Source: Rhabdaerophilum sp. SD176 (GTDB lineage Bacteria; Pseudomonadota; Alphaproteobacteria; Rhizobiales; Beijerinckiaceae). Taken from it: a DNA stretch of 64,000 bases. Position numbers and translations under genes: made by a program. The stretch spans positions 372,001 to 436,000 of the forward strand of contig NZ_JARJNS010000002.1 in assembly GCF_030143245.1 (NCBI RefSeq), given 5' to 3'. The notes under the pieces are model-generated. The model ran no database searches and was not told the origin of the DNA. It was given only the letters and a program-made list of their open reading frames with translations. Of this stretch, positions 16,555 through 33,324 are shown in pieces. Positions within the stretch are counted from its first letter, which is position 1. Each line of letters starts with the position of its first letter.

Positions 16555-17506
16555 ACGCATCGCTCGGCTGCGCGAGCGAAAGAGCGGCTTTCCGCTGCAG
16601 CAATTCCACCGCGATGCCCGCCGCGATGACGGCGGGATGCTTGCTGCCGAGATCGGTGCGTCCGACGGGGCAGATCATCCGGGCAATGGCCTGAGGCTCC
16701 AGTCCGAGCCGGCCGAGCTGGCTCGTGAAACGGGCGCGTTTGGTCGCGCTGCCGATCACGCCGCAATAGGGCAGGTCCGGCCGGTCGAGGGCTGCCGCCA
16801 TCAGGTCAAGGTCGAGTGCGTGGCTATGCGTCATCACGAGGATGAAGGCGCCGGGCGGCGCGGCGGCGATCTCGGCGACGGGCGTCGGCGTCGCAACCGC
16901 CACGGTATTGGCGGGGCGATGGGAGGGGAAGAGTTCGGGCCGTGTATCGATCCAGCGGATGGCAAAGGGCAAAGGCGCCAGCGCGAGGACCAGCGCGCGG
17001 CCGACATGGCCGGCGCCGAAGAGCAGCAGCGGCTGCGCCGGTTCCGCCGGTGCTTCGAGAACCGCACCAGCCGGCACAGGCAAGGCCGGGTCCTGCCCCT
17101 CGCGCAGCAGGATGCCGCGCGCATCCGGCCGGGCTGCGATGACCATTGCAGGGTCCTGCCGGAATGCGGCCACCAGCGGCTCGAGCCAGGCCAGATCGGT
17201 GCGGGCAAGAACCTCGATCCGCAGGGTGACATGGCCGCCGCAGCATTGGCCCATATCCGGACCCAAGGCGAAGCCGCGGGTCTGCGCGTGGCCTTCAGGG
17301 TGGCGCTGCATCGCCTGCTGCGCCAGCGCGATGGCCTGCCATTCCAGCGTGCCGCCGCCGATCGTGCCGGCGATGCGCCCATCGGCGCGCACCATCATGC
17401 GGGTCCCGGCCTCGCGCGGGCTTGACCCGCGAACAGCGTCAATGGTGACGAGGGCCAGTTGCCCGTCTTGGGCCAAAGTCGCGGCGATGCGTGCCCAATC
17501 CGCCAT
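16529..17506 (-). CDS. xdhC: Xanthine dehydrogenase accessory protein XdhC
   Basis: XdhC binds molybdenum cofactor and supports its sulfuration and insertion into the XDH large subunit. The 325-residue protein has the CoxI/XdhC N-terminal domain with GTIGGGTLEW and the conserved QCCGG motif (likely cofactor-binding cysteines). A C-terminal Rossmann-like domain follows (LLLFGAGHVGRAL; VMTHSHALDLDL; YCGVIGSATKRARF). The start at 17506 overlaps the xdhB stop by one base. The 3' end overlaps the convergent FAD-dehydrogenase gene by 26 nt. Confidence 0.93.
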   Translation of the reverse strand: MADWARIAATLAQDGQLALVTIDAVRGSSPREAGTRMMVRADGRIAGTIGGGTLEWQAIALAQQAMQRHPEGHAQTRGFALGPDMGQCCGGHVTLRIEVLARTDLAWLEPLVAAFRQDPAMVIAARPDARGILLREGQDPALPVPAGAVLEAPAEPAQPLLLFGAGHVGRALVLALAPLPFAIRWIDTRPELFPSHRPANTVAVATPTPVAEIAAAPPGAFILVMTHSHALDLDLMAAALDRPDLPYCGVIGSATKRARFTSQLGRLGLEPQAIARMICPVGRTDLGSKHPAVIAAGIAVELLQRKAALSLAQPSDAFRPQAGRA

Positions 17507-19842: not shown

Positions 19843-21316
19843 GGGCCGCCTCCGTGACGGGGCCGCGTGGCTGGATCCGCGTCAGGCTGCGTGCGCCGCC
19901 GATTTCGGTCAGGGCCTTGCCGAGCAGGGCGCGGGCCACGCGGGAGCGGTAGGCGGCCGTGGCGCGCATGTCGCTGATGGGTTGGTAATCCTCGGCAAGG
20001 GCCCGGAGCGCGACCGCCCATTCGGCCGGGGCGGCGATCGGCAGGCCGACCAGCGCGGCTTCAGCCTTCGCTGCGCGGCGCGGTGTCGCTGCCATGCCGC
20101 CGAAGGCAATGCGCGCCGAGACGATGCGGCGCTCGGCATCCAGTTCGATCCGGAAGGCGCCCATGACGGTGGAGATATCCTCGTCGGTGCGCTTCGAGAT
20201 CTTGAAGCAGCGGAAATGGCTGCCGGGCCCCGGCCTGGTGATCGTGAGGCCGCTGATCCATTCGCCGGGCCGGCGGTCCTGTTTCCCGTAGGCGATGAAG
20301 AAATCCTCGAGCGGCAGGTCGCGGCTCTCGGCGCCGTGCCGGAGATGGAGGGTGCAGCCGAGGGCGACCAGGGCGGGGGCGAGATCCCCGATCGGCGAGC
20401 CATTGGCGATGTTCCCGCCGATTGTGCCAGAGGCCCGCACCTGCCGCGAGGCAAAGCGCTTCATCAGCTGATCGAGATCGGGGTCGATCCGGGCGAGCGC
20501 GGGCATCGCCGCAGTATGGGTGACGCCGGCGCCGAGGAAGAGGGTCGTCTCATCCTCGGCGATGGTCTTCAGGGCCTCGATGCGGTTGAGAGCGATGACC
20601 TTTGGCAGGTCTTGCAGCTTCTTGGTGATCCAGAGACCGACATCGGTGGCGCCGCTGACCAAAGTGGCTTCGGGATGGCTGGCCGCCATCTCCGCGAAGG
20701 TATCGAGCTGGGCCGGGGCCGCAAAAAACCGGTCATCATGGCCGAGAATCAGATCCCTCCCGTCAGCCAGTACCTGCAGGGCGGCTGCCTTGCCGGCAAC
20801 TCCGATGCCGGGGTCGTCGGGGACAGGATCAGCCAGCGCCTCTGCCGCCGCATCGAAAATCGGGCGGTAGCCGGTGCAGCGGCAGAGATTGCCGGCGAGG
20901 CATTCGGCAATGGTCTCGCGGGAGACCGGGCGGGGTTCGGCCAGATAGGCGGCGACAAGGCTCATCACGATGCCCGGCGTGCAGAAGCCGCATTGCGCGC
21001 CGTGATGCCGCACCATGGCCTGCTGGACCGGGTGCAGCGCGCCGCCCTTGGCCAGGTCCTCGACCGTGAGGACCTCGCAGCCATCGACCATGCCGAGCAG
21101 GAGGATGCAGGCATTGACCGGCTGGTAGCGCACCGCGCCATCCTGCCACCGGGCCAGGATGATTGTGCAGGCCCCGCAATCGCCCTCGTTGCAGCCTTCC
21201 TTGGTGCCGGTGGCGTGGCGGGCCTCGCGCAGCCACTCGAGCAGCATGCGCGTTGGGTCGATCTCATTCAGTTCGACCAGCGAACCCCGGAAGATGAAAC
21301 GAAGGTTGCGACGCAT
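19835..21316 (-). CDS. xdhA: Xanthine dehydrogenase small subunit (2Fe-2S and FAD)
   Basis: This 493-residue electron-transfer subunit passes electrons from the Mo site to NAD. The N-terminal domain holds the plant-type 2Fe-2S cluster (EGCNEGDCGACT), and the next domain holds the second cluster (CGFCTPGIV and LCRCTGYRPI). Then come the FAD domain (GGNIANGSPIGDLAPAL) and the C-terminal flavoprotein domain. The ATG at 21314-21316 gives MRRNLRFIFRGSLVEL, a normal start; a start 12 codons upstream is possible but adds no recognisable sequence. It heads the xdhABC operon and diverges from a TctC gene. Confidence 0.93.
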   Translation of the reverse strand: MRRNLRFIFRGSLVELNEIDPTRMLLEWLREARHATGTKEGCNEGDCGACTIILARWQDGAVRYQPVNACILLLGMVDGCEVLTVEDLAKGGALHPVQQAMVRHHGAQCGFCTPGIVMSLVAAYLAEPRPVSRETIAECLAGNLCRCTGYRPIFDAAAEALADPVPDDPGIGVAGKAAALQVLADGRDLILGHDDRFFAAPAQLDTFAEMAASHPEATLVSGATDVGLWITKKLQDLPKVIALNRIEALKTIAEDETTLFLGAGVTHTAAMPALARIDPDLDQLMKRFASRQVRASGTIGGNIANGSPIGDLAPALVALGCTLHLRHGAESRDLPLEDFFIAYGKQDRRPGEWISGLTITRPGPGSHFRCFKISKRTDEDISTVMGAFRIELDAERRIVSARIAFGGMAATPRRAAKAEAALVGLPIAAPAEWAVALRALAEDYQPISDMRATAAYRSRVARALLGKALTEIGGARSLTRIQPRGPVTEAAHV

Positions 21317-21451: not shown

Positions 21452-22450
21452 ATGCATAGAAAACCAGCTTTCACGCGTGTTCGGCCCGCTCTCATGCGAA
21501 TCATGGCGGTGCTTTTCGGTGGGATCGTGGCTCAGGGCGCCGCCCAGGCCTTCCCGACCAAGCCCATCACCATCGTGGTACCGTTTGCCGCCGGTGGTCC
21601 CAGCGACACGATCGCGCGCCTATTCGCCGCATCGATGAGCCAGAAGATCGGCGGTCAGGTTATCGTCGAGAACGTGGCCGGTGCCGGTTCGACGGTCGGC
21701 ATCGGGCGGGTGGCCAAGGCCGATCCTGACGGGCATACCCTGCTGCTCTCGCATATCAGCCACGCAACGACCGCCACGCTCTATCGGAAGCTGTCCTATG
21801 ATCCGATCAAGGCCTTCGCACCTGTCGGCATGGTCACCGACGGTGCCTTCGTCCTTGTCAGCCGCAAGGATTTCGGCACCGACACGCTGCCGCAGCTCTT
21901 CGCGAGGCTGAAGGCTGACGGGGACAAGATCACCTACGCGCATGCGGGCGTCGGCTCCGGATCCCATCTTTGCGGGTTGATGCTGATGGGGCAGCTCGGC
22001 GTCAAGATGACGCAGATTCCCTATCGTGGAACCGGCCCGGCGATGAATGATCTCGTCTCCGGCAAGGTCGATGTCCTATGCGACCAGATCACCTCCGCCC
22101 TGCCGCAAATCCAGGGCAAGGCGATCAAGGCCTACGCTGTCACCTCGACAGAAAAGGTGAAGGGGCTCGACCTGCCGACCCTCGCGGCTTCCGGACTGCC
22201 GGGCTTCCGCGCCACGGTCTGGCACGGGCTCTATGCTCCGGCCGGGACACCGGCGCCGGTGATCGGCCAGATCAACAAGGCCCTCAGGGAAGCCCTGAAG
22301 GACCCTGTGATCCTGCAGCGGCTCGCACAGCTCTCTACCGATCCGGCCACCGAGGCACAGGCGGATCCGGCCTTCCTCGGCAAGCATCTCGTTTCGGAGA
22401 TCGCCGCGTGGAAGAAGATCATCGACACAGCCGGTGTCTACGCGGATTGA
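21452..22450 (+). CDS. Tripartite tricarboxylate transporter substrate-binding protein (TctC/Bug family)
   Basis: This 332-residue periplasmic binding protein has a signal sequence ending near AAQA and the family opening FPTKPITIVVPFAAGGPSDTIARL. GAGSTVGIGRVAKADPDGHTLL and IPYRGTGPAMNDLVSGKVDV follow, all typical of TctC/Bug proteins that bind carboxylates. A GGAGG ribosome site lies at 21442-21446; the second of two tandem ATGs (21452) has the better spacing. No TctA or TctB membrane genes are nearby, so it is an orphan in this window. In Roseovarius sulfolactate uptake a TTT transporter (SlcHFG) is used, so a sulfolactate role is possible given the neighbouring operon. Confidence 0.85.
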   Translation: MHRKPAFTRVRPALMRIMAVLFGGIVAQGAAQAFPTKPITIVVPFAAGGPSDTIARLFAASMSQKIGGQVIVENVAGAGSTVGIGRVAKADPDGHTLLLSHISHATTATLYRKLSYDPIKAFAPVGMVTDGAFVLVSRKDFGTDTLPQLFARLKADGDKITYAHAGVGSGSHLCGLMLMGQLGVKMTQIPYRGTGPAMNDLVSGKVDVLCDQITSALPQIQGKAIKAYAVTSTEKVKGLDLPTLAASGLPGFRATVWHGLYAPAGTPAPVIGQINKALREALKDPVILQRLAQLSTDPATEAQADPAFLGKHLVSEIAAWKKIIDTAGVYAD

Positions 22451-22453
22451 GGC

Positions 22454-22485
22454 AAAAGGCCGGGAGCGGGCCAGCCCGCTCCCGG
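22454..22485 (-). terminator. Terminator at the end of the sulfolactate operon
   Basis: An 11-bp perfect stem (CCGGGAGCGGG at 22460-22470 pairing with 22475-22485) with a 4-nt loop lies immediately after the yitT-like stop. On the minus strand it is followed by CCTTTT, so it fits leftward termination. It also lies just past the end of the rightward tctC gene. Confidence 0.7.
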
Positions 22486-22486
22486 T

Positions 22487-23110
22487 TCACGACATGCCGA
22501 GATAACGCCCGGGCTTGTGGTTGATTGCCAGGATCAGGTTGACGACCACGGCGCCGAGGATCGAGAGCGCGATCCCGGCGGGATTCAGCACGAAAAAGGC
22601 GGCTGCGAGGATCATCATGTCGAGGCCGAGCTGGACATAGCCGGCACGCCAGCCGAGACGCTCCTGCAGGAACATGGCGAGCACGTTGATCCCGCCTAGC
22701 GCCGTACGATGCCGGAACAGCATCAGCAGCCCGTTGCCCATCAGCCCGCCGCCAAGGATCGTGGCAAAGACCGGATCCAGCCGGGCGAAGTCGATCCAGT
22801 CCTGCAGCCAGCGGGCATAGAGCGAGACAAGCGTGACCGCGAGGAAGGTGCGGGCGGCGAAGCGCCAGCCCATCCGCCAGGTCGCCAGCGCATAGAAGGG
22901 CAGGTTCAGCAGCGAGAAGACCAGCCAGAAGCCGAGGCCGGTGGCATGGTGGATCAGCAGGCCGAGGCCGGCCGTCCCGCCGGTGACGAGCATCGCCTTC
23001 TCGTAGAAGGCGATGCCGACCGCGACGAAGAGCGTGGCCATGGCGATGGCCAGCGCGTCTTCGTAAAGCGCGTGCCGGATGACCGGCAGCGCCCCGGTCT
23101 CCTCCCGCAT
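22487..23110 (-). CDS. YitT-family membrane protein
   Basis: This 207-residue integral membrane protein of the YitT/DUF161 type has about five or six hydrophobic segments. Family-like features are the opening EDALAIAMATLFVAVGIAFYEKA, a Gly-rich segment (TGGTAGLGLLIHHATG) and HRTALGGINVLAMFLQER. The biochemical role of the family is not established. Its start codon overlaps the stop of the aldehyde dehydrogenase by one base, and a terminator follows, so it is the last gene of the sulfolactate operon. That position suggests a transport function linked to sulfonate or sulfite, which is inference only. Confidence 0.8.
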   Translation of the reverse strand: MREETGALPVIRHALYEDALAIAMATLFVAVGIAFYEKAMLVTGGTAGLGLLIHHATGLGFWLVFSLLNLPFYALATWRMGWRFAARTFLAVTLVSLYARWLQDWIDFARLDPVFATILGGGLMGNGLLMLFRHRTALGGINVLAMFLQERLGWRAGYVQLGLDMMILAAAFFVLNPAGIALSILGAVVVNLILAINHKPGRYLGMS

Positions 23111-24561
23111 CAGGCGATCCCGCCGAGGCAGACATACTTCATGTCGAGATAATCCTCGAGGCCATGGCGGGAGCCCTCGCGGCCGACGCCGCTTTCCTTC
23201 ACGCCGCCGAAGGGTGCGACCTCGGTGGTGATCAGTCCCTCGTTCACACCGACCATCCCGTATTTCAGCGCTTCCGAAACGCGGAAGGCCCGGGCGAGAT
23301 CGCGCGTGTAGAAATAGGCGGCGAGGCCGTATTCCGTGGCATTGGCGAGGCTGACGACTTCCGCCTCCGTCTCGAAGCGGAAGATCGGGGCGAGCGGGCC
23401 GAAGGTTTCCTCGGTCGCGACGCGCGCATCCTGCGGCACATTCTTGACGACGGTCGGCTCGAAGAAGGTGCCGCCGAGCGCATGGCTCTTGCCGCCGGTG
23501 ACGACCTCGCCGCCGCGGGCGAGAATGTCATCGAGATGGGCCTTCACCTTGGTGAGGGCGCGGGTATCGATCAGCGGGCCGATCTGCACGCCGCTCTCGA
23601 ACCCGCTGCCGACGCGCATCTTCGCCACTTCCTCGGCGAAGCGGCGGGCGAAGGCATCATGGATGCCCGCCTGCACATAGAAGCGGTTGGTGCAGACGCA
23701 GGTCTGGCCGGCATTGCGATACTTGGCCTGAAGCGCGCCCTGCACCGCGCGGTCGAGATCGGCATCGTCGAACACGATGAAGGGCGCATTGCCGCCGAGT
23801 TCCATCGAGATGCGCTTCATCGTGCCGGCGCTTTGCTGGGCGAGGAGCTTGCCGACCGGCGTCGAGCCGGTGAAGGTGATCTTGCGGACGAGCGGATTGG
23901 ATGTCAGTTCCGCACCGATTTCGGGCGCATCGCCAGTGACGATGTTGACCACCCCGGCCGGGATGCCGGCCTCGGCGCAGAGCACGCCCCAGGCTAGGCC
24001 GGAATAGGGGGTGAGGTCCGCCGGCTTGATCACGATGGTGCAGCCCGCCGCGAGGGCGGCGCCGAGCTTGCGGCCGATCATCGAGGAGGGGAAGTTCCAC
24101 GGCGTGATCGCCCCGACCACGCCCACAGGTTCCCGCGTGACGAGGATGCGCCGGTCGGCCCAGGGCGAGGGCACGACCTCACCATAAGCGCGGCGGGCTT
24201 CCTCGGCGAACCATTGCACATAGGCGGCAGAACTGCCGATCTCGCCGCGCGCCTCGGCCAGTGGCTTGCCCTGTTCCTGCGTAAGCAGATGGGCGAGCGC
24301 TTCGCTGTTCTGGCGGATCAGCTCGGCCAGTTTCTGCAGGAGGGCGGCGCGCTCGGCAGCGGTTTTTGCACGCCAGGCCGGGAAAGTGGCATGGGCCGCC
24401 TCGATGGCGCGGCGTGTTTCTGCCTTCCCGGCATTCGGGATGGTGCCGATCGTCTCGCCGGTGGCGGGATCGGTGACGGCGATCGTCCGGCCGGAATCAG
24501 CCGCGATCCACTGGCCATCCACGAGAATGGCCTGCTTCTTGAATTCGAGTTTGGTCAGCAT
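23110..24561 (-). CDS. NAD(P)-dependent aldehyde dehydrogenase, succinate-semialdehyde/sulfolactaldehyde dehydrogenase type
   Basis: This 483-residue aldehyde dehydrogenase is closest to the GabD family. It has PWNFPSSMIGRKLG for cofactor binding, the general base Glu254 in SMELGGNAPF, and the nucleophile Cys288 in GQTCVCTNRF. The second Cys290 is typical of GabD. Plain succinate-semialdehyde dehydrogenase is the default name. However, sulfolactaldehyde dehydrogenases of the sulfo-Entner-Doudoroff pathway belong to this same family, and the gene sits inside an operon with SuyAB, SlcC and ComC. I therefore favour oxidation of 3-sulfolactaldehyde to sulfolactate, by context. It ends in a one-base overlap with yitT. 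Confidence 0.85.
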   Translation of the reverse strand: MLTKLEFKKQAILVDGQWIAADSGRTIAVTDPATGETIGTIPNAGKAETRRAIEAAHATFPAWRAKTAAERAALLQKLAELIRQNSEALAHLLTQEQGKPLAEARGEIGSSAAYVQWFAEEARRAYGEVVPSPWADRRILVTREPVGVVGAITPWNFPSSMIGRKLGAALAAGCTIVIKPADLTPYSGLAWGVLCAEAGIPAGVVNIVTGDAPEIGAELTSNPLVRKITFTGSTPVGKLLAQQSAGTMKRISMELGGNAPFIVFDDADLDRAVQGALQAKYRNAGQTCVCTNRFYVQAGIHDAFARRFAEEVAKMRVGSGFESGVQIGPLIDTRALTKVKAHLDDILARGGEVVTGGKSHALGGTFFEPTVVKNVPQDARVATEETFGPLAPIFRFETEAEVVSLANATEYGLAAYFYTRDLARAFRVSEALKYGMVGVNEGLITTEVAPFGGVKESGVGREGSRHGLEDYLDMKYVCLGGIA

Positions 24562-24615
24562 GTCGATCTCCTGCCAGCCGCCCGGCGGTGGCGAAATGAT
24601 CCCCTCACGCTTCCC

Positions 24616-25614
24616 TTACAGCGCCTCGATCTCCGAGACGAGGGCCTCTGCGACGGCCAAACCGCTTTTTTGTGCCTTGGCGCGCAAGGTCAGCCGCCGC
24701 GAGCCGGGCAGGCGAGCGCCGGGCTGGCTGCGGATCTGCTCGGCCAGGCGGGCGAAATGGGCGAGCGTGCCCTCGCCACCGAACAACGCCGGATCGAAGG
24801 CGAGAAGCAGCTGGCCGGTGGCCGGCGGATCGCCCTTGTCATCGAGGAAGGAGGAGGCATCGGCGGCGAAGCGGGCGCCGGTCAGGCCGGCAGCGAGCAA
24901 TTCGATCATCAGCGCCAGCGCGGTGCCCTTGGCATCGCCGAGCGGCAGCATCGTGCCCTTGAGTGCAGCCTCGGCATCGGTGGTCGGCCGGCCCTCGGCA
25001 TCCAGCGCCCAGCCCTCGGGAATAGGCTGGCCCTTCTGTTTTGCCGCGAGGATGTTGCCGCGCGCCACCTTGGAGAGCGAGAGATCAACCACGATCGGCG
25101 GTTCGCCCGGCAGCGGACAGGCAAGGGCGAGCGGGTTGGTGCCGAAGGTCGCACGGCTCCCGCCCCAGGGCGCCATGGCGGCAGGGGTATTGGCGAAGAG
25201 CATCGCAACGAGGCCCTTCTCCGCGAGACGTTCCACCGGCGCGCCGGCCACGCCGCAATGATGCGAGCGCCGGATGGCGGCAGCGGCGAGGCCCATCATC
25301 GGGGCATGTTCGGCCAGCATCGCCTCCGCCAGCGCCAAAGCGGGATAGGCAAAGCCGAAGCCTACATCGATCCGGCCCAGCGCCGGCGTGACCATTTCGA
25401 GCCGGGGCTCCGCATCACCGCGGATCTTGCCGTTGCGGGCCTGCGCGGCATAGCTGGGCACGCGCGATAGGCCATGGCCCTTGAGCCCGTCGGCCTCGGC
25501 CGCCACAAGGGCGCGCGCCACGCAATGGGCTGTTTCCGGCCGCGTGTTGCAGCGGATGAAGGCCGAGGCGGCGAGGGCCTCGGCTTGCTCAAGGGTGAGG
25601 ATGCGCTCGGACAT
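24616..25614 (-). CDS. comC: Ldh-family NAD(P)-dependent oxidoreductase, probable (R)-3-sulfolactate dehydrogenase (ComC)
   Basis: This 332-residue protein belongs to the malate/L-lactate dehydrogenase family (type 2, not Rossmann), which includes ComC. It shows the family landmarks LKGHGLSRVPSYAAQARNGKI, the catalytic-region IRRSHHCGVAGAPVERLAEKG, PWGGSRATFGTNPLALACP and a lysine-rich SKVARGNILAAKQKGQ segment. ComC interconverts sulfopyruvate and (R)-sulfolactate. Together with SlcC it can convert (S)- to (R)-sulfolactate, the form SuyAB cleaves. The assignment to sulfolactate rests on adjacency to slcC and suyAB; malate or lactate activity cannot be excluded from sequence alone. Confidence 0.8.
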   Translation of the reverse strand: MSERILTLEQAEALAASAFIRCNTRPETAHCVARALVAAEADGLKGHGLSRVPSYAAQARNGKIRGDAEPRLEMVTPALGRIDVGFGFAYPALALAEAMLAEHAPMMGLAAAAIRRSHHCGVAGAPVERLAEKGLVAMLFANTPAAMAPWGGSRATFGTNPLALACPLPGEPPIVVDLSLSKVARGNILAAKQKGQPIPEGWALDAEGRPTTDAEAALKGTMLPLGDAKGTALALMIELLAAGLTGARFAADASSFLDDKGDPPATGQLLLAFDPALFGGEGTLAHFARLAEQIRSQPGARLPGSRRLTLRAKAQKSGLAVAEALVSEIEAL

Positions 25615-25652
25615 GGCAGATTCCTTGCGGAGGCACTGGGGCGTGACCCGGC

Positions 25653-26591
25653 TCAGCCGGCCTTCCCGTTCTCCAGATGGTCGAGGATGCGCGTGGCGAT
25701 GAGGTCGGAGACGCGCCGGTTCGATTCCTGCGTGACGCCGGCAATATGCGGCGTCAGGATCAGGTTCGGGCAGCCGGAAAAGACAGCACCGCGCTGTGCC
25801 GTCAGCGGCTCTTCGTCGAAGACATCGAGCGCCGCGCCGCCCAGCCGCCCTTCGCGCAGGGCTGCGGCAAGGGCGGGTTCATCGACGACGCCGCCCCGTG
25901 CCGCGTTGAGCAGGATCGCATCCGGCCGCATCCGGCGCAGGCGCAGGTCGTCGATCAGGTTGCGGGTCTCGTCCGTCAGCGGAACATGGAGGGAGATCAC
26001 ATCCGCCTCGCGCAGCAGGGGTTCAAGCCCGTGCCGGCGGGCCATGGACCAGCACGGATCGGTGTCGGACAGGAAAGGATCATAAGCGATGACTTCCATG
26101 CCGAGGGCCCGTGCCCGCTGCGCCACCTCGCGGGCAATGGCACCGAACCCGACCAGCCCCATCACCCGGCCCGAGGCCTCGCGGCCCATCAGCCGCTGGC
26201 GCGGCCAGGTGCCGGCGATCACCTCTGCTGTGGCGGCATAGGCGCCGCGCAGCAGGATCAGCGTGGAGGCGATAACCCATTCCGCCACGGCAAGGTCGTT
26301 CGCGCCGGTTGCGGGATAAACCGCGATGCCACGGTCCTTGCAGGCGGCGACATCGATATTGTCGAGCCCGACGCCGAGCCGACCGACCGCCTCGAGATTC
26401 GGGCCTGCCGCCAGCAAAGCCGGACGGACCTGCGTGCGGTTGCGGACGATCAGGGCGCGGGCGGAGGGCAGCAGCCCGGCCAGTCTGGCGGGATCATCGA
26501 CGAGGGCCGGATCGTAGAGCGTGTCGTGGCGGTCGGACAGCCGCGCGACGGCCGCCTCGTCCATGAATTCGGTGACAATGATCGTGCTCAC
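25653..26591 (-). CDS. slcC: D-isomer-type 2-hydroxyacid dehydrogenase, probable (S)-sulfolactate dehydrogenase (SlcC)
   Basis: This 312-residue protein has the two-domain fold of D-2-hydroxyacid dehydrogenases. It shows the NAD-binding loop MGLVGFGAIAREVAQ, catalytic Arg in NAARGGVVDE, Glu in FDEEPL and His in LTPHIAGVTQES. SlcC oxidises (S)-3-sulfolactate to sulfopyruvate. It sits between comC and the exporter gene and shares a 4-nt ATGA overlap with the exporter, in an operon that also carries suyAB. The substrate call is from context and recalled similarity to SlcC proteins. Confidence 0.78.
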   Translation of the reverse strand: MSTIIVTEFMDEAAVARLSDRHDTLYDPALVDDPARLAGLLPSARALIVRNRTQVRPALLAAGPNLEAVGRLGVGLDNIDVAACKDRGIAVYPATGANDLAVAEWVIASTLILLRGAYAATAEVIAGTWPRQRLMGREASGRVMGLVGFGAIAREVAQRARALGMEVIAYDPFLSDTDPCWSMARRHGLEPLLREADVISLHVPLTDETRNLIDDLRLRRMRPDAILLNAARGGVVDEPALAAALREGRLGGAALDVFDEEPLTAQRGAVFSGCPNLILTPHIAGVTQESNRRVSDLIATRILDHLENGKAG

Positions 26592-27643
26592 AGGACCCTC
26601 ATCGCGAAAATGCCGGCAAGGGCCAGCGCCAGGATGATCAAGGTGGCGCCGAGGAATACGGCGAGGTGGCGCCAGCCCGTGGCCATGACGGCACCGGCAG
26701 AGGTGCCAAGGCCGAGCGCGGCGATGGCGATCATCATCAGCCAGCCGGAAAGCGAGGATAGCACGCTCTTGACGCTTGCATACTGTGCCGCGAGCGCGGT
26801 GCCCGGCATGACCGAATTGACGACCACCAGCGCGAGGAAGACCAGCGCGAAGCCCGGCAGCGGCACTTTCGCCTTCGTCCCGCCATCCCCGCCTTCCTGC
26901 CGCATCAACACCCAGCCGATGCCCAGGACGACGGGCAGGAGCAGGAAGACACGGAAGAGCTTGATGATCACGGCATTGTTACCGACGGGCTCGGACATGG
27001 CGTAGCCGGCGCCGACGACCTGGGCCATGTCATGGATGGTCAGGCCGAGGAAGAGGCCGGTCTCCCGGACATCAAGGCCGAGTGCGACCGCGAGCGGCGG
27101 ATAGGCGATCATCACGACAGTCGAGAGTGCATTCGCCATCACCACCGTGAAGGCAATGTCGGCAGCCTTCTGCTTGTAATCCGGAACCACGGTGGCGGTC
27201 GCCAGAGTCGCCGAAGCGCCGCAGACCGCACAGGCAGCGCCGGCCAGCGCACCATAGCCGCGTGCCAGCCCGAGCAGACGCGCCAGCATCATCGCGCCGG
27301 CAACCGTGCAGGCCATGGCCAGGATGGCAAGCAGGGCGGCAGGCCAGCCGAGGCCGGCAATGTCGGACAGCGCGATGCGCAGGCCAAGCAGGGCGATGGC
27401 ATAGCGGAGCAGGCGTTTCACGGCGAGGTCGAAACCCGCCTTGAAGACAGGATTCCGGGCGATCGGGTTCAGGAGAATCCCGATCACCAGCGCCAGCACC
27501 ATGCCCGGAAGGCTGGCGCCGAAGGTGCGGCGGAGCCAGGGTTCGAGGGCCATGGCGGCCAGAGCCACGGCCAGAGCGAGCGCCAGGCCTGGCAACCAGG
27601 CCGCCGGGCGCGGGGCGCCCGGCGATACCGTTGCTTCAGGCAT
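26588..27643 (-). CDS. YeiH/PSE-family membrane exporter, probable sulfite/sulfate exporter (SuyZ-like)
   Basis: This 351-residue polytopic membrane protein (about ten segments) belongs to the YeiH putative sulfate exporter family. Family motifs include LPGMVLALVIGILLNP, ALLGLRIALSDI, the Cys-containing GAACAVCGASATLATA and TIHDMAQVVGAGYAMSEPVG. Desulfonation by SuyAB releases sulfite, which is toxic, and sulfonate-degrading clusters commonly encode an exporter for sulfite or sulfate. The gene begins 3 nt after suyB ends and overlaps slcC by 4 nt, so it is almost certainly coexpressed. Which anion is moved is inference. Confidence 0.8.
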   Translation of the reverse strand: MPEATVSPGAPRPAAWLPGLALALAVALAAMALEPWLRRTFGASLPGMVLALVIGILLNPIARNPVFKAGFDLAVKRLLRYAIALLGLRIALSDIAGLGWPAALLAILAMACTVAGAMMLARLLGLARGYGALAGAACAVCGASATLATATVVPDYKQKAADIAFTVVMANALSTVVMIAYPPLAVALGLDVRETGLFLGLTIHDMAQVVGAGYAMSEPVGNNAVIIKLFRVFLLLPVVLGIGWVLMRQEGGDGGTKAKVPLPGFALVFLALVVVNSVMPGTALAAQYASVKSVLSSLSGWLMMIAIAALGLGTSAGAVMATGWRHLAVFLGATLIILALALAGIFAMRVL

Positions 27644-27646
27644 GCG

Positions 27647-28939
27647 TCAGGCCGAGCGATAGAGCTTGGTCATGACGAATTCCCGATGGCCGAGCGCTTC
27701 GGCGGCCGTCAGGCGACCATTCGCGGTGCGGATGATCGAGGCGATCAGCGCGTCACCCGCTTCCGGGATCGTGAGATCACGCCGGAGGATACCGGAGACA
27801 TCGACATCCATATGCTCCGGCATGGTGCGCATGGTCTTCGGGTTGCCGGTGATCTTGATCACGGGGATGATCGGATTGCCGATGACATTGCCCTGCCCGG
27901 TCGGGAAGGTGTGCACGACATAGCCACCTGCGGCCATCAGGGTCACGCATTCCGCCGCGGCGGAGGACGTGTCCATGAAATAGAGGCCGGGCCCTTTCGC
28001 CGGTGCCTCGGCCGGGTCGAGGATGTCGATATACTTGCACTCACGGCCGATCTTCTCGAGATTGCCGAGCGCCTTTTCCTCGATGGTCGTCAGGCCGCCG
28101 GCAATGTTGCCCTTGGTCGGCTGGCTGTCGGAGAGGTCGGAGGTCTTGTGGGCCTCGATGACATCGTCCTGATAGGCCTTCCACATCTTGTACCAGCGCT
28201 CGCCGACTTCAGGCGTCGCCGCGCGGGCCTTGCAGAGATGCTCGGCACCGGTGATCTCTGACGTCTCGCCGAAGACGCCGTAGATGCCCTTGGGGATCAG
28301 CTTGTCATACATGTTGCCGACAGTCGGGCAGGAGGAGAGCCCGGTCGTGGTGTCGCTCTCGCCGCATTTGGTCGAGACCCACAATTCGGAGATGTCGCAT
28401 TTCTCGCGCTGGAGCTCGCTGGCCCATTGCACGAATTCCTTGGCGACATAGGAGGCCTTTGCGATGACCGCGATATCGCCATGGCCTTCGATGCCGAAGC
28501 CGACAACCGGCTTGCCGGTCTTGGCAATGCCCTCGACAACAACCTTGGTCCAGCTGTCCTCGATGCCGATGACGATGACGGCGGCAACATTCGGGTTGGA
28601 GCCGGTGCCGATCAGCGTGCGGAAATGCAGGTCAAGATCGGCGCCGAATTGCAGGCGGCCATAGGCATGCGGCAGGGCCATCGTGCCCTTGATGTTGTTC
28701 GCCACGGCCTCGCAGGCCGCATTCGAGAGGTCATCCAGCGGCAGCAGGACGACGTGGTTCCGGACGCCGACGCGACCATTCTCGCGGCGCCAGCCGTAGA
28801 AATGGTCCATCGCGGCATCGGCCCGGCGCTTCCGGCGCATCGGCGCCTTGAAGGACGGGGCTTCGATCCAGCGGCCCTTGACGGGCTTGAGCTTGTTCCG
28901 GTTCAGGGAGAAATTCGCAACGATCGGGGCGCTTGCCAT
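27647..28939 (-). CDS. suyB: (R)-sulfolactate sulfo-lyase large subunit
   Basis: SuyAB cleaves (R)-3-sulfolactate to pyruvate and sulfite. The 430-residue large subunit is related to the C-terminal part of altronate/galactarate dehydratases. It has the recalled SuyB hallmarks [59 protein letters not shown] (Cys192) and [16 protein letters not shown]. Compared with UxaA-type enzymes, the LPLDDLSN and GESDTT segments point to SuyB. The first 45 or so residues (Arg/Lys-rich, [14 protein letters not shown]) form an extension ahead of the conserved fold. A good AGGAG ribosome site precedes the ATG at 28937-28939. The gap to suyA is 13 nt. Confidence 0.87.
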
Positions 28940-28952
28940 GTCGGTTCTCCTG

Positions 28953-29240
28953 TCACCAGCGCTTGGTCTTGACGTTATGCACGTGGACATGTTCGCCCTT
29001 GGCGATATCCGCCACGGCCTTGCCGATGTCCTGTCCGTATTTCCAGATCGTGTCGCCCTTGCGGATATCCTTCAACGCCACCTTGTGGCCGATCGGGATG
29101 TCGGCCCGGGAAGCCACCGAGAAGCTGGAATTGTCGGCCGTCACCACGGCCAGCATCTCGGTGCCGGCCTTGAGGTTTTCGACAACGACAACGCCCACGG
29201 TGTCCTTGTGTTCATGGACAAGCAGATGGGGAATGGTCAT
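28953..29240 (-). CDS. suyA: (R)-sulfolactate sulfo-lyase small subunit
   Basis: This 95-residue SAF-domain protein corresponds to the N-terminal domain of altronate dehydratase, here encoded separately as in SuyAB. It opens [20 protein letters not shown] and contains [23 protein letters not shown]. The DIPxGHKxAL segment is the family signature, and [14 protein letters not shown] closes the protein. It is the first gene of the leftward operon. The mapped promoter elements lie about 100 nt upstream, leaving a 5' leader of roughly 90 nt. Confidence 0.88.
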
Positions 29241-29331
29241 GGCTCTATGCCTTCCTCGCGATACGCCCTCGGGCGCTTGGGGGGATGGTGGCGTGCCGGC
29301 ACCGTGACGGATCAGGGCTACGAACGCTCAG

Positions 29332-29356
29332 GTCTTGTATAAGACATAAGACTTGT
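29332..29356. promoter_or_regulatory. Putative GntR/HutC operator between suyA and the regulator gene
   Basis: GTCTTGTATAAGAC (29332-29345) is an inverted repeat with 5-bp arms (GTCTT/AAGAC) around GTAT. It is followed by a second AAGACTTGTTA half-type repeat (29348 onward), so AAGAC recurs with a 7-nt period. HutC-type GntR regulators bind palindromes with a TGTATA-like centre. The site overlaps predicted promoter elements for both the sulfolactate operon and the regulator. Confidence 0.55.
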
Positions 29357-29367
29357 TAGAGTGTCAA
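29339..29367 (-). promoter_or_regulatory. Predicted promoter of the suyA operon
   Basis: On the minus strand a perfect -35 box TTGACA (complement of 29362-29367) is spaced 17 nt from TCTTAT (complement of 29339-29344), a 4 of 6 match to the -10 consensus. The -10 box lies inside the inverted repeat, so bound regulator would occlude RNA polymerase. A rightward -10-like TATAAG (29338-29343) may serve the regulator gene. Confidence 0.5.
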
Positions 29368-29369
29368 TC

Positions 29370-30119
29370 ATGAACGAGAAGACAAATTCTCCGGACGAGG
29401 CTCGCGGGACGCCGGGGTTCCTGCCGCTCTACCGGCAGGTCAAGTCCCTGCTCGTCCGCCGGATCGCCGAGCGCTTCTGGCAGCCGGGGGAAATCCTGCC
29501 CTCCGAGATGCAGATCGCGGCGGAACTCGGCGTCAGCCAGGGCACGGTCCGCAAGGCGCTCGACGAGATGACCGCCGACCGCCTGCTCGTGCGCCGGCAG
29601 GGGCGGGGCACTTTCGTTGCCCGGCATGACGAGAGCCGGATCCTGTTCCAGTTCTTCAAGATCGTGCCCGAGACCGGGATTCCCGTCTTTCCCGAAAGCC
29701 ATCTCCGCCGTGTCGAGACCGCGCCGGCGAGCCCCGAGGAAGTGGCGCGCCTGGCGCTCAGGCCCGGTGACAACGTGATCCGGATCGCACGGATCCGCTC
29801 GCTCAACGGCCGGCCGACCATTTCAGAATATCTCGCCCTGCCGCTGGAGCGGTTCCCCGGCCTTGTGAGCCAATCGGATATCCCCAACAATCTCTACGAT
29901 CATTTCGCATCGGATTACGGCATCACGATTGCGGGCGGCGACGAATCGCTCCGTGCCATGGCGGCGCCGGCAGAGGATGCCGCGCTGCTCGGCATTCCGG
30001 AGGGAACGCCGATCCTCGCCATCGACCGGGTGGCGCTGGATCTCGACGGCAAGCCGGTGGAATGGCGTTATTCGCTCTGCGATACACGCCATTGCCACTA
30101 TGTGAGCGGCCTCAGATAG
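29370..30119 (+). CDS. GntR-family transcriptional regulator, HutC/UTRA type
   Basis: This 249-residue regulator has an N-terminal winged helix-turn-helix (PLYRQVKSLLVRRIAERFWQ, PSEMQIAAELGVSQGTVRKA, DRLLVRRQGRGTFVARH) and a C-terminal UTRA ligand-binding domain of HutC type. It is divergent from suyA across a repeat-containing gap, so it most likely controls the sulfolactate operon and perhaps itself. The ligand may be a pathway metabolite such as sulfolactate. Start choice: ATG at 29370; a GTG three codons upstream is also in frame. Its 3' end overlaps the convergent kinase gene by 8 nt. Confidence 0.9.
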   Translation: MNEKTNSPDEARGTPGFLPLYRQVKSLLVRRIAERFWQPGEILPSEMQIAAELGVSQGTVRKALDEMTADRLLVRRQGRGTFVARHDESRILFQFFKIVPETGIPVFPESHLRRVETAPASPEEVARLALRPGDNVIRIARIRSLNGRPTISEYLALPLERFPGLVSQSDIPNNLYDHFASDYGITIAGGDESLRAMAAPAEDAALLGIPEGTPILAIDRVALDLDGKPVEWRYSLCDTRHCHYVSGLR

Positions 30120-31029
30120 AAACGAGGCGCCTCGGCGCCGGCAGGTTGGGCAGGGCAGCCTCGACCTCCTGGCGCGCCGGCGCGCCGGAACTGCCGCCGG
30201 GCCTCAGGCATTTCAGCGCCGCGGTGACATTCGCCCACTGGATGGCATCCAGCAGGTCGAGCCGTTCGGTCAGCGCCCAGGCAAAAGCACCATGCCAGAC
30301 ATCGCCGGCGCCGAGCGTATCGACCGCGCGGATATCCAGCGAGGGGATGTGCCAGAGGCCGTCGGGGAGCAGCGCGAGCACGCCATCGCCGCCATCCGTG
30401 ACCGCGAGGAAGCTCTCGCTTTCGCGCCGGATGGCCAGCAGGCCCTGGTGGAGATCCGGCATGCCGGTGGCCTCCCGCAACCCGATTGCGGAAAAGATCA
30501 CATGGCTTGCCCGCGCCAGCAGGCTGCGATCCTGCGGCGCGCGGTCGCCGTCGAACACAGCCGGGATCCCGGCCTGCCGTGCGAGATCGAACAGATGGCC
30601 GGCTCCCGTTTCCCAGCGGGTATCGCCCAGAACGGCTGCGGTTCCGGCCGGCAGGGAAGGGGGCAGCCAGTCCGGGCGGTCCGGCATGCGGGGATCGAGA
30701 TAATTGACGATCGTCCGGTCCCCGCCGGGTTCAATGATGATGCTCGACCTCGACGTCACGTAGCCGGTCATGGGCGGGGAGAATGAGTCGTCGATGCTGA
30801 ATTCGGCCAGTTTCTGCCGCACGATCTGGCCGCTGGCATCGTCGCCGATCCGCGCGATCAGGCAGGCCTTTCCGCCCAGCCGGGCGATCGCAAGGGCAGC
30901 ATTGGCGGCATTGCCGCCCATCACGCTGTCGGACCGGATGGCGCGGTGTTTCTCGCCAGGTTTCAGCGCGAGCGGGATTGTCATCACCTCATCGAGCACC
31001 ACGATGCCGATGGTCATCAGGCTGCGCAT
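30112..31029 (-). CDS. PfkB-family sugar kinase resembling sulfofructose kinase YihV
   Basis: This 305-residue ribokinase-family protein has the N-terminal GG motif (VMGGNAANAALAIARLGG) and the C-terminal anion-hole/catalytic motif DTLGAGDVWHGAF. It lines up without gaps over its first 140 residues with my recollection of E. coli YihV, the sulfofructose kinase of sulfoglycolysis. Shared positions are Lys27, Asn109 (GGDRTIVNY) and Arg138 (GDTRW). I recall Asn109 and Arg138 as sulfonate-binding in YihV. The ending ALKCLRPGGSSGAP also matches YihV-like ALKCTRPGG. It lies tail-to-tail with the regulator and head-to-head with an ABC sugar-binding protein gene. Sulfofructose kinase is my preferred hypothesis; another sugar kinase activity remains possible. 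Confidence 0.75.
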   Translation of the reverse strand: MRSLMTIGIVVLDEVMTIPLALKPGEKHRAIRSDSVMGGNAANAALAIARLGGKACLIARIGDDASGQIVRQKLAEFSIDDSFSPPMTGYVTSRSSIIIEPGGDRTIVNYLDPRMPDRPDWLPPSLPAGTAAVLGDTRWETGAGHLFDLARQAGIPAVFDGDRAPQDRSLLARASHVIFSAIGLREATGMPDLHQGLLAIRRESESFLAVTDGGDGVLALLPDGLWHIPSLDIRAVDTLGAGDVWHGAFAWALTERLDLLDAIQWANVTAALKCLRPGGSSGAPARQEVEAALPNLPAPRRLVSI

Positions 31030-31123
31030 CGCTGGTCCTTCCTCGCTTGCAGGCATCCGGCATCCGGGCCCGGCATTGAACAGGCTCGGGAATCCTGCCA
31101 TCACCCATCCGGGAGGTTGTCGC

Positions 31124-32425
31124 ATGCGGAAGGACGAAACGGAAGCATCGGCCCGGCGAGGATCGGGGACAGGCCGTCCCGCCCGCCTGCTGGGCGGCTT
31201 CCTTTTTCTCTGGCTGGCCTCGACTTTGCCGGCTCCGGCTCAGACCAATCTCAAGGTCTTCGCGGCCAATTTCCCGAAGATCGATGTGCTGCGCGCGCTT
31301 GCCAATGCCTATGGCCAGACGCGCCCGGGCGTCACGATCGAGATCGAAACCGGCGGTGCCACGCTGGGCAGCCAGCAGCAGGCGCTCAATGCCCTGCTCG
31401 GTGCCCGCGATGCCAGTGTTGATCTGGTTTTGGTCGATGTTCTCCGTGTGCCGCAATGGACATCGGGCCAATGGCTCGAGCCGCTGGACGCCCCGTTCGG
31501 CCCCGAGCGCGAAGCGTTCCTCGCGCGGCTGTTTCCGGCCTACCGGCAGGCGGCCCTTGCCGGCGGGCGGCTGATGGTGGTGCCGTATTCGGCGGATGCG
31601 CAGGCGTTGTTCGTGCGCACTGACCTTCTCGAGAAGCACGGCCTTGCGGTTCCTGCGACCCAGGCAGCGCTTCGCGAGGCGGCAACGCGGATCCTTGCCG
31701 CCGAGAACCAGCCGACCCTGCGTGCGATCGATCTCTCCTCGGCACCGGTCGAGAGCAGCGTCTGCACCGCGGCGATGGCGCTGTGGGGGAGCGGGCATGA
31801 TCTTGTCACCGAAGGCAAGCCGGCTTTGCTGACTGACCCTGCCCTCCGCGGCCTGCGGGGATTCCAGGCGCTCAAGGATGCAAAGCTCCTGGCCATCCCG
31901 CCTGGCGAGGGCCATCCGGAACGCGTTCGCCTTGCCATGCAGGCTGGCTCGCTCGTTTTCGGTCACGGCTGGAGCTATGCCTGGCAACGGATGCAGACCG
32001 ACATCGACAGTGTCGTGGCCGGCAAGGTGCGGGTGGTGCCGGTTCCCGGCGAGACGGAGGATCGCGCTTCGAGCTGCGCCGGCGGCTGGATGGTGGGCGT
32101 GACCGCCTTTTCCGGCCAGAAGGCCGAGGCTTTGGCTTTCCTTCGCTATCTCGCCTCGCCCGAAGCCGCGCGGCTGCAGGCCGAACTCGGAGATTTGCCT
32201 GCCCAGAGCGGCCCCTATCTGGACGCGACGATTGTGGCGTCGCGGCCTTTCCTCGGCCAGATGGGGCCCGTGCTGGCCGTGGCGCGCCTGCGGCCGCAAA
32301 GCACGCGCTATTCCGAAGTGTCGGAGATTGTCCGGACCAACCTTTCGGCCTTCATGGCGGGGTCGAAGACCGCCGAAGCCGCCTTGCAGGACATGCAGGC
32401 CCGGCTTTCGCTGATCTTCCGGTAA
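31124..32425 (+). CDS. ABC transporter extracellular solute-binding protein, family 1 (sugar type)
   Basis: This 433-residue protein has an N-terminal signal (hydrophobic LLGGFLFLWLASTLPAPAQ, cleavage after PAQ) and a family-1 binding fold. The ligand-binding features are VFAANFPKIDVLRALANAYG, DLVLVDVLRVPQW, LMVVPYSADAQALFVRTDLLEKHGL, and the C-terminal GGWMVGVTAFSGQKAEALAFLRYLAS. It resembles trehalose/maltose/SQGro-type binding proteins. No permease or ATPase genes lie nearby, so it is an orphan here. GGGAGG at 31111-31116 supports the ATG at 31124. Being divergent from a YihV-like kinase, it may bind a sulfosugar, which is inference. Confidence 0.85.
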   Translation: MRKDETEASARRGSGTGRPARLLGGFLFLWLASTLPAPAQTNLKVFAANFPKIDVLRALANAYGQTRPGVTIEIETGGATLGSQQQALNALLGARDASVDLVLVDVLRVPQWTSGQWLEPLDAPFGPEREAFLARLFPAYRQAALAGGRLMVVPYSADAQALFVRTDLLEKHGLAVPATQAALREAATRILAAENQPTLRAIDLSSAPVESSVCTAAMALWGSGHDLVTEGKPALLTDPALRGLRGFQALKDAKLLAIPPGEGHPERVRLAMQAGSLVFGHGWSYAWQRMQTDIDSVVAGKVRVVPVPGETEDRASSCAGGWMVGVTAFSGQKAEALAFLRYLASPEAARLQAELGDLPAQSGPYLDATIVASRPFLGQMGPVLAVARLRPQSTRYSEVSEIVRTNLSAFMAGSKTAEAALQDMQARLSLIFR

Positions 32426-32442: not shown

Positions 32443-33222
32443 TCAGCCCCGCGGGCGATAGGGCGCAAACCAGCCGAGGCCGGCTTCGGTGCCGCCCGCC
32501 GGACGGTATTCACAGCCGATGAAGCCGTCATAGCCGAGCCGGTCGAGTTCGGTGAAGATGGCGGCATCGTTCAGCTCGCCGCTGCCGGGCTCGTTGCGCA
32601 GCGGGATGCTCGCTGTCTGGATATGGCCGATGATCGGAGCCATCTCTCGCAGGCGCATGATCATATCGCCATGCAGGATCTGGCAGTGGTAGATGTCGAA
32701 TTGCAGCTTGACGTTCGGCAGGCCGAGCTGGCGGATCAAGACTGCGGCCCGGCCGAAATCGTCGAGCAGGTAGCCCGGAACGTCGCGCCGGTTCAGCGGT
32801 TCGAGCAGCACGTCGATCCCCATCGGCGCGAAGAAGGCGGCGGCCTCGCGGATGCCGGCCTCGTAGCGCGCCATGGCCGCCGGGTCCTCCGGAGAGGCGA
32901 GTCCGGCCATCATGTGGACGCGGCGCACACCGGTTGCCTCGGCATAGGCCCGAGCGGTCACCAGCCCCTGCCGGAACTCATCCTCGCGGCCCGCCAAAGC
33001 GGCTATGCCGCGCTCGCCGCCCGCCCAGTCGCCCGGGGGCAGGTTGAACAAGGCCAGCGTCAGGCCGTGCCGACGCAGTTCGGCGGCAACAGCCTCGGGC
33101 GGAAATTCGTAGGGAAAAAGGAACTCCACGGCCTCGAAGCCCGCTGCCGCTGCCCGGCCGAAACGCTCGAGGAACGGTACCTCGTTGAACATCATGGTGA
33201 GGTTGGCAGCAAAGCGCGGCAT
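32443..33222 (-). CDS. Hydroxypyruvate isomerase family protein (Hyi/OtnI-like)
   Basis: This 259-residue TIM-barrel protein of the xylose-isomerase-like/AP endonuclease 2 fold has Hyi landmarks. These are MPRFAANLTMMFNEVPFLER, FNLPPGDWAGGERGIAAL, LLEPLNRRDVPGYLL (catalytic/metal Glu), LQFDIYHCQILHGD, GHIQTASIPLRNEPGSGELN and GCEYRPAGGT. The enzyme family isomerises hydroxypyruvate and tartronate semialdehyde, or 2-oxotetronates (OtnI). AAGGAG precedes the ATG. It diverges from a TPP enzyme gene, which recalls the gcl-hyi pairing, but that neighbour does not look like Gcl. Confidence 0.83.
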   Translation of the reverse strand: MPRFAANLTMMFNEVPFLERFGRAAAAGFEAVEFLFPYEFPPEAVAAELRRHGLTLALFNLPPGDWAGGERGIAALAGREDEFRQGLVTARAYAEATGVRRVHMMAGLASPEDPAAMARYEAGIREAAAFFAPMGIDVLLEPLNRRDVPGYLLDDFGRAAVLIRQLGLPNVKLQFDIYHCQILHGDMIMRLREMAPIIGHIQTASIPLRNEPGSGELNDAAIFTELDRLGYDGFIGCEYRPAGGTEAGLGWFAPYRPRG

Positions 33223-33324
33223 GGGAATCTCCTTATGCCCTGTTTTCCCGCGCCGGACGCGTTCACGCAATTGCGAAATGCGGGTGATGCCGGCATCAGG
33301 CAAGGAGAGGACAGGGAGAATGCC

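Follow-up and report, generated by a model that had tools for sequence, protein, structure and literature searches.

Sulfoglycolysis is usually seen as a two-tier process, in which one species excretes C3 sulfonates and another one cleaves them. The pieces of both tiers are in print, from the sulfolactate sulfo-lyase SuyAB with the dehydrogenases SlcC and ComC to the sulfo-Embden-Meyerhof-Parnas (sulfo-EMP) pathway, the glycoside hydrolase family GH188 and a tandem pathway for sulfofucose (PMC9594981, PMC10755693 and PMC12421959, cited here, like the other papers below, from their accessible sections). Sulfoquinovose is made at gigaton scale per year (PMC13372026), and the presence of both halves in one bacterium has been termed unusual (PMC12421959). 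Here, we describe a seven-gene suyAB operon with a divergent HutC-type regulator in a window of 64,000 nucleotides from Rhabdaerophilum sp. SD176 (contig NZ_JARJNS010000002.1, positions 372,001 to 436,000). We consider it likely that this operon forms the lower part of a regulon with two loci mineralizing a plant and algal sulfosugar, most likely sulfoquinovose, by a hybrid sulfo-EMP route in tandem with sulfolactate sulfo-lyase. The most unusual features are above all an adjoining sulfofructose-kinase-like gene, an unlinked sulfo-EMP-type locus and an operator shared by the two loci, all of which go beyond the sulfolactate operon pictured in a sequence-only reading of this DNA. What we observed is gene content, homology, synteny, co-occurrence and an operator common to both loci; from these we infer all substrates and activities, the pairing of regulator and operator, the sign of the regulation and its effector.

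The identity of SuyAB, already proposed from the sequence, was supported by phylogeny. SuyA (95 aa, Pfam SAF; 28953..29240, minus strand) is 68% identical to SuyA of P. versutus and 52% to that of C. pinatubonensis, and SuyB (430 aa, Pfam GD_AH; 27647..28939, minus strand) reaches 78% and 70%, respectively (the C. pinatubonensis reference loci are from strain HN-2, not the studied JMP134). For suyB, a 447-aa open reading frame (ORF) begins at 28990 inside suyA, with Met18 at 28939 as the likelier start. That both proteins could be subunits of a sugar-acid dehydratase of the altronate/galactarate type is suggested by their Pfam families, which are common to both kinds of enzyme, and by galactarate dehydratase being their sole NCBIfam match, far under the cut-off. 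In a tree of 28 proteins, however, SuyB shares a branch, supported at 100/100, with those of P. versutus, S. mexicanum and C. pinatubonensis HN-2 (from its hpsN-hpsO-suyAB locus); UxaA, GarD and the altronate-type protein of the Rhabdaerophilum genome fall outside this branch, the outgroup branches being very long. A place inside the altronate/galactarate dehydratase clade had been named beforehand as the finding that would speak against a sulfo-lyase, and the tree puts SuyB outside it. In the same vein, a plasmid search with SuyB gave at least 60% identity in 13 of 316 records, and among the 40 of these 316 that were listed the identity falls from at least 62% straight to less than 39%. On the tree and this gap we reject the dehydratase reading, which we regard as highly improbable.

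The operon is a leftward run on the minus strand from suyA at 29240 to yitT at 22487 (ORF coordinates), with successive spacings from suyA downstream of 13 nt, 3 nt, an overlap of 4 nt, 38 nt, 54 nt and an overlap of 1 nt, reproducing the tight packing first noted from the sequence. After suyB come a YeiH/PSE-family gene (26588..27643), whose family is upheld by Pfam (PF03601, 210 bits; under the cut-off for TIGR00698, at 123.6 versus 232.6 bits) and whose product is a probable sulfite/sulfate exporter, a slcC-type D-2-hydroxyacid dehydrogenase gene (25653..26591, Pfam 2-Hacid_dh) for a probable (S)-sulfolactate dehydrogenase, and a comC-type malate/L-lactate dehydrogenase gene (24616..25614, Pfam Ldh_2) for a probable (R)-sulfolactate dehydrogenase. 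Both dehydrogenase genes adjoin suyAB, and the names SlcC and ComC, which the sequence-only reading had given them, are supported as probable by family and synteny. The run ends with a GabD-like aldehyde dehydrogenase gene (23110..24561; TIGR01780, 684 bits, above cut-off), a candidate for sulfolactaldehyde dehydrogenase, and a YitT-family membrane protein gene (22487..23110; PF02588, 99 bits), for which a literature search gave nothing relevant in connection with sulfonates. Profile searches, suggested as a check, thus returned the families named but left part of the assignments without a dedicated model: neither SuyA nor SuyB matched one, no curated SlcC model was among the NCBIfam and Pfam matches of the operon proteins, and the top NCBIfam match of ComC (NF040650, L-sulfolactate dehydrogenase) scored 193 bits under a cut-off of 500. 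A terminator-like hairpin of 11 pairs (10 GC) follows yitT on the same strand (22460..22485) and fits an operon end there. On the opposite strand, across a divergent gap of 120 nt, gntR (29361..30119, plus strand; possible later start at 29370) encodes a protein with the GntR and UTRA domains expected of the HutC subfamily, in agreement with the first description.

A scan of species genomes for SuyB relatives provided the best 80 of 463 stretches, giving 81 loci with the window (hereafter numbered L); family counts are lower bounds, as some loci stop at contig ends. The order of the eight genes is kept in the nearest of them, L003-L006, which are metagenome-assembled genomes filed under Beijerinckiaceae or Hyphomicrobiales, at 92-100% identity, and L007, the isolate Rhabdaerophilum calidifontis, where the seven operon genes reach 63-90% and gntR 54%. 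Operon and divergent HutC-type regulator form a genuine arrangement, not one due to chance. Across the 81 loci we counted suyA in 72, comC in 66, gntR in 64, slcC in 60, yeiH in 48 and a TctC-type binding protein gene in 48, and therefore the suyAB core and its regulator are common in Hyphomicrobiales. The kinase (10), yitT (9) and aldehyde dehydrogenase (7) families are rarer, the last being confined to the window and L003-L008. The claim that this gene set was undescribed stands in part: the aldehyde dehydrogenase is unusual, but the suyAB-slcC-comC core has been published for Paracoccus (PMC9594981, PMC12421959). As for the regulator and exporter, a GntR gene divergent from suyAB together with a YeiH-type exporter is already annotated on P. 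versutus pTAV3.

Next to the operon and convergent with gntR lies a PfkB-family kinase gene (30112..31029, minus strand), whose product is probably a 6-deoxy-6-sulfofructose kinase. Its best match among PDB chains is the E. coli sulfofructose kinase 7ag6 (175 bits; runner-up, 143 bits), and YihV, with 37% identity, is its nearest relative with a solved structure. When the genome was searched with the kinase of L050, the window gene was the only close match (48%, E 2e-80); the next one, at another place, was full-length at 30% (E 7e-21), and two others were weak and partial. On contig C20 of the same genome, SqgA-like, isomerase and aldolase genes stand in a row, divergent from an ATP-binding cassette (ABC) importer beyond which a mutarotase gene is found, and no kinase gene was called at this sugar locus. 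The window and C20 loci complement each other. In L007, L042 and L050, the order kinase, LacD/DeoC-family aldolase (PF01791 in L007), fucose-isomerase-like gene and Gfo/Idh/MocA gene is followed by gntR and the suy operon, with a TctC-type gene intervening before gntR in two of the three. L055 carries a GH31 gene in place of the Gfo/Idh/MocA gene, L008 has all four genes, its isomerase call being shorter, and in genome G196 the kinase gene is grouped with those for aldolase, isomerase and an SqgA-like protein away from suyAB. The GH31 gene of the Rhabdaerophilum genome was considered as a sulfoquinovosidase and set aside; it sits in another ABC cluster and its product is 30% identical to the GH31 protein of L055.

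The Gfo/Idh/MocA protein points to the sugar. That of L007 scores 486 and 475 bits against PDB chains 8qc2 and 8qc3, which the residue match suggests to be SqgA. In the genome's own protein and four relatives (5/5), positions K107, Y136, R166, L170, K172, E189 and H193 of SqgA match in spacing and identity, with the signatures EKP, YRY and HRFxxLxK and the E/H spacing preserved throughout; contacts of these residues, including those of R166, L170 and K172 with the sulfonate, are described in PMC10755693. The C20 protein would then be a GH188-type NAD-dependent sulfoquinovosidase. The isomerase was assigned more loosely: a low-confidence model of the L007 protein (pLDDT, the predicted local distance difference test score, 63; template-modelling score 0.4) matched arabinose and fucose isomerases best (Foldseek E 1e-12 to arabinose isomerases), and Fucose_iso_C was just reached in L050 (29.5 versus a cut-off of 29.3) and stayed under cut-off in L007 and L008.

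Co-occurrence was examined in an order sample of 297 genomes (numbered G), with SuyB taken at E up to 1e-100 and the aldolase at E up to 1e-60. SuyB was found in 68 and the aldolase in 29 of them. Where the aldolase is at least 61% identical, SuyB is present in 15 of 17 genomes, against 2 of 12 where it is at most 55% (Fisher p 6e-9 for the closer aldolases and 1e-5 for all 29, shared descent being ignored; the 61% cut was placed at a gap after the data were seen). Two other genomes of the genus are in the sample: G260 holds SuyB and the aldolase, and its SqgA, isomerase and aldolase match the L007 proteins at 100% identity, and G076 holds neither. Both the aldolase and the operator discussed below are present in G038 and G075, with no SuyB at the E threshold. 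As a side observation, the SuyB alignments of G037, G074, G104, G026, G099, G006 and G033 contain one TAG each and possibly run upstream of the start codon.

The two loci are also connected by an operator. The palindrome GTCTTATATAAGAC occurs between gntR and suyA (within 300 bp, at most two mismatches) for 64 of the 72 suyA genes that have at least 150 bp of upstream DNA; in the window, the motif search placed the operator GTCTTATGTCTTATACAAGAC at 29332..29352 on the minus strand. It is also present between suyA and gntR in P. versutus (two mismatches) and S. mexicanum (one mismatch), and was not found with up to three mismatches in the suy stretch of C. pinatubonensis. Over 1.54 Mb of loci, 83 sites with at most two mismatches were counted, 48 of them in the gntR-suyA context, while 19 of 20 shuffled palindromes gave 0-2 matches and one gave 15. 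L042 and L050 carry a second copy before the kinase. In the Rhabdaerophilum genome itself, the 21-mer GTCTTATNNCTTATANAAGAC has two sites when up to three mismatches are allowed, one in the window promoter and one in the C20 promoter between aldolase and importer (one site for the backwards control). Because the pattern was drawn after seeing both sites, their zero mismatches are by construction, which is not the case for the lack of further sites in the genome. The C20 copy lies 135 bp upstream of the aldolase gene, as it would if the kinase gene had been relocated.

The positions of the operator were then compared in 22 other genomes, namely all 16 with an aldolase of at least 61% identity and 6 of the 12 whose aldolase is more distant. 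In seven of the 16 (G196, G131, G075, G038, G037, G074 and G104, from two genera) it precedes the aldolase match by 977-1083 bp, in three more it is on the aldolase contig within 3.3-7.5 kb, and it was near the aldolase in none of the six genomes with a distant one; with two genera out of about 12, a rough binomial bound is 5e-4. In G196, it directly precedes the kinase-aldolase-isomerase-SqgA genes, and in G150 a kinase-aldolase-isomerase set has no operator and a LacI-type regulator nearby. Two copies surround the aldolase locus of G037 and three that of G075, where one copy directly precedes a HutC-type regulator gene (53% identity) in a genome with no SuyB at the threshold used; codon-bias gene calling returned no genes in the former stretch (L119) and few in the latter (L120).

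The placement of the operator is informative about its possible role. In the window (29332-29367, minus strand) and in the suyA promoters of L003, L008, L011 and L038, a TTGACA box stands 17 bp before a TCTTAT within the operator; a regulator bound there could mask the -10 region, as would suit a repressor. Of 72 suyA promoters, 37 have a TTGACA-like box (at most one mismatch) that precedes the best site by 10-32 bp, and a generic sigma-70 scan of window positions 22000-31500 returned no site. In another group of Hyphomicrobiales (L057, L068, L081 and others; families fam26, fam28-29, fam32-34 and fam46-47), suyAB lie downstream of sdhABCD-like genes, along with fumarase/tartrate-dehydratase-like genes (named by eye) and in some cases a TauE-like gene, and the operator is located between the sdhA-like gene and suyA in seven places. 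This neighbourhood may be why the motif, published for the HutC-type regulator SdhR (PMC4494728), received that name.

Taken together, the SuyB clade, the conserved operon, the kinase with its best match and uniqueness, the kinase-less C20 locus, the one-cluster relatives, the SqgA residues, the SuyB-aldolase co-occurrence and the operator at both loci lead us to the two-locus reading. In such a route, the C20 importer and the GH188-type NAD-dependent sulfoquinovosidase would supply sulfoquinovose, which mutarotase and isomerase would turn into sulfofructose. The YihV-like kinase of the window would phosphorylate it, and the LacD/YihT-type aldolase of C20 would yield dihydroxyacetone phosphate (DHAP) and sulfolactaldehyde. 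The GabD-like dehydrogenase may oxidize the latter to (S)-sulfolactate, joining the upper and lower halves, after which SlcC and ComC would convert (S)-sulfolactate to sulfopyruvate and then to (R)-sulfolactate. Finally, SuyAB is predicted to split (R)-sulfolactate into pyruvate and sulfite, with the YeiH-type protein probably exporting sulfite or sulfate. Both loci are most likely repressed by the divergent HutC-type regulator acting at GTCTTATATAAGAC, and a sulfonate intermediate would release the repression. In a broader form, which we hold to be slightly more probable than not, one HutC-type repressor would run a full route by which a single cell turns sulfoquinovosides into pyruvate, DHAP and sulfite; an identical operator would precede both modules in several Hyphomicrobiales genera, whether clustered or split, and the 'SdhR' operator would be the signature of an organosulfonate regulon.

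A number of observations weigh against this route, several of them on the aldehyde dehydrogenase. It is the only GabD-like protein of the genome (next paralogue, 36%), and it keeps the catalytic Cys/Glu, the oxyanion Asn and Arg171/Arg289 of RlGabD (presumably PDB 8c54, judging by residue numbering). E. coli GabD has the same residues, so that we dropped the active site as proof of a sulfolactaldehyde dehydrogenase. TIGR01780, whose cut-off the operon protein exceeds, describes the succinate-semialdehyde dehydrogenase subfamily, and the protein is 58% identical to E. coli GabD versus 55% to RlGabD, with firm grouping with neither. In a tree with one reference per class and bootstrap values not settled, an RlGabD-like protein (99.6%) groups with E. 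coli GabD (99/100) and the operon protein elsewhere, failing to join the proven sulfolactaldehyde dehydrogenase apart from succinate-semialdehyde dehydrogenase. Six of seven plasmid relatives (hits H41, H42, H44 and H51-H54) had no suyAB nearby in the stretches examined; the only one near suyAB, from S. mexicanum (68%), is 13 kb off, with genes resembling a sulfofucose set by eye lying between, and this species is listed in PMC12421959. Moreover, L042, L050 and L055 possess the kinase, aldolase, isomerase and suyAB and no such dehydrogenase in the stretches examined. The protein is thus kept as a candidate sulfolactaldehyde dehydrogenase, assigned from gene context. Besides, 53 of the 68 SuyB genomes lack an aldolase of at least 61% identity, so the lower module often stands alone. 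The 14-mer operator occurs at two places in the Rhabdaerophilum genome, the same as its backwards control, and its genome-wide count does not exceed that control in 17 of the 22 other genomes; this count was dropped as evidence and therefore only the 21-mer and the places of the sites matter, and 6 of the 16 close-aldolase genomes have no operator near the aldolase (the G022 contig begins 645 bp before the gene). For the released sulfite, the best of three PF00174 matches was SoxC, the only one classified, and no SorA/SorT-type sulfite dehydrogenase was identified among them. Contig C18 (72000-88000) has a Sox-type cluster, in which SoxB and SoxC exceed their cut-offs and which may deal with sulfite.

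Part of these points would be accounted for if the operon served C3 sulfonates only, taken up or derived from dihydroxypropanesulfonate (DHPS), which an hpsNOP-like cluster on C20 would convert to sulfolactate, the aldehyde dehydrogenase being an ordinary succinate-semialdehyde dehydrogenase and the C20 locus serving another sugar. Beside the sulfosugar locus on C20 (L096:3265-12329), a LacI-type regulator, an ABC importer and an aminotransferase-like gene accompany HpsN/HpsO/HpsP-like genes, whose products are 73, 61 and 46% identical to C. pinatubonensis proteins and which form a probable DHPS degradation set; the third gene, annotated as galactitol-1-phosphate 5-dehydrogenase, is by our own naming presumably hpsP. 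Their proximity, the dehydrogenase leaning to E. coli GabD and the scarcity of the close aldolase among SuyB genomes agree with a C3 operon, which nevertheless leaves unexplained the sulfofructose-kinase-like gene, the sulfonate-binding residues of SqgA, the shared operator and the excess of SuyB among close-aldolase genomes; we hold it to be unlikely. The sugar itself deserves the same caution, as the two loci might act as proposed on another hexose, for example sulfofucose via sulfotagatose and sulfotagatose-1-phosphate. Indeed, the C20 aldolase is 27% identical to YihT and above the cut-off for the tagatose-1,6-bisphosphate aldolase subfamily, which also weighs against the proposed sulfoquinovose route, the isomerase resembles arabinose and fucose isomerases, and such a route was considered for the kinase and aldolase genes of the suyAB cluster in PMC12421959, which showed no significant rise on sulfofucose in the accessible text. 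On the other hand, an SqgA-like gene is adjacent, GH188 is defined on sulfoquinovosides (PMC10755693), and the best kinase match is a sulfofructose kinase, and we see a different hexose as rather improbable, sulfoquinovose remaining our preferred substrate.

Other genes surround the system in the window. A TctC/Bug solute-binding protein gene (21503..22450, plus strand, Pfam TctC) is convergent with the operon, and an ABC sugar-type solute-binding protein gene (31226..32425, plus strand, Pfam SBP_bac_1) is divergent from the kinase, which it also adjoins in L003-L007. Beside the latter (32443-34953) are a TIM-barrel gene, hydroxypyruvate-isomerase-like by eye, and an acetolactate-synthase-like thiamine diphosphate enzyme gene whose family is present in L003-L006 too. 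Xanthine-dehydrogenase-like genes (16529-21316) recur beside the suy operon in 11 of 81 loci (fam7, fam21 and fam22 cover these and a deaminase-like gene), and a 569-aa deaminase-like gene, named by eye, is a recurrent neighbour in 28 of 81. Further sulfur-type genes nearby encode a Sulf_transp (YeeE/YedE-type) protein (36137-37315, minus strand) and a WD40-cytochrome c protein (39160-40446, plus strand), with a short TusA/SirA-like protein, by eye, encoded between them (38872-39096, minus strand).

A regulon joining both halves of sulfoglycolysis would amount to a testable single-organism route, and its operator motif can be used for seeking further sulfonate genes in genomes. The operon also supplies a candidate enzyme of the type that PMC12421959 could not find, a sulfolactaldehyde dehydrogenase, as far as its accessible text goes. 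No regulon combining a hybrid sulfo-EMP route with a GabD-like dehydrogenase and SlcC/ComC/SuyAB was found in searches of an open-access library.

Each part has a counterpart among described systems. Extended sulfo-transaldolase clusters of Thermotogae and Chloroflexi likewise associate sulfoglycolysis genes with SuyAB, but in other phyla and with a transaldolase instead of kinase and aldolase (PMC9594981). With sulfo-EMP and hybrid sulfo-EMP/EMP2 (PMC9594981, PMC13372026), the Rhabdaerophilum loci share a PF00294 kinase, a PF01791 class I aldolase, a putative fucose-isomerase-type isomerase and a PF01263 mutarotase; the aldolase looks LacD-type rather than YihT-type, and cleavage in the same cell would follow, whereas those pathways excrete sulfolactate or DHPS. 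The dehydrogenase has in common with RlGabD (PMC10599462) the ALDH family, the catalytic Cys/Glu, both proposed sulfonate-binding Arg and a W-N-F tripeptide, yet belongs to another branch, and these shared residues do not set E. coli GabD apart. The SdhR palindrome TCTTATGTCTTATATAAGACATAAGA contains the operator found here; the accessible SdhR text (PMC4494728) makes no sulfonate link (0 occurrences of 'sulfo'). Another close counterpart is the tandem sulfofucolytic-sulfolactate sulfolyase pathway of Paracoccus wurundjeri Merri (PMC12421959), in which a sulfosugar is also converted to sulfolactaldehyde ahead of SlcC/ComC and SuyAB in one cell, and whose cluster too has PF00294 kinase and PF01791 aldolase genes. 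Its upper route is of the Entner-Doudoroff type, in contrast to the predicted sulfo-EMP type at a separate locus, and its sulfolactaldehyde step was left open, no SlaB/GabD homologue being reported there in the accessible text, where the present operon offers a GabD-like candidate. Finally, its cluster 3, with fumarate/tartrate genes and a TauE homologue raised on sulfofucose (PMC12421959), looks like the Hyphomicrobiales group in which suyAB follow sdhABCD-like genes.

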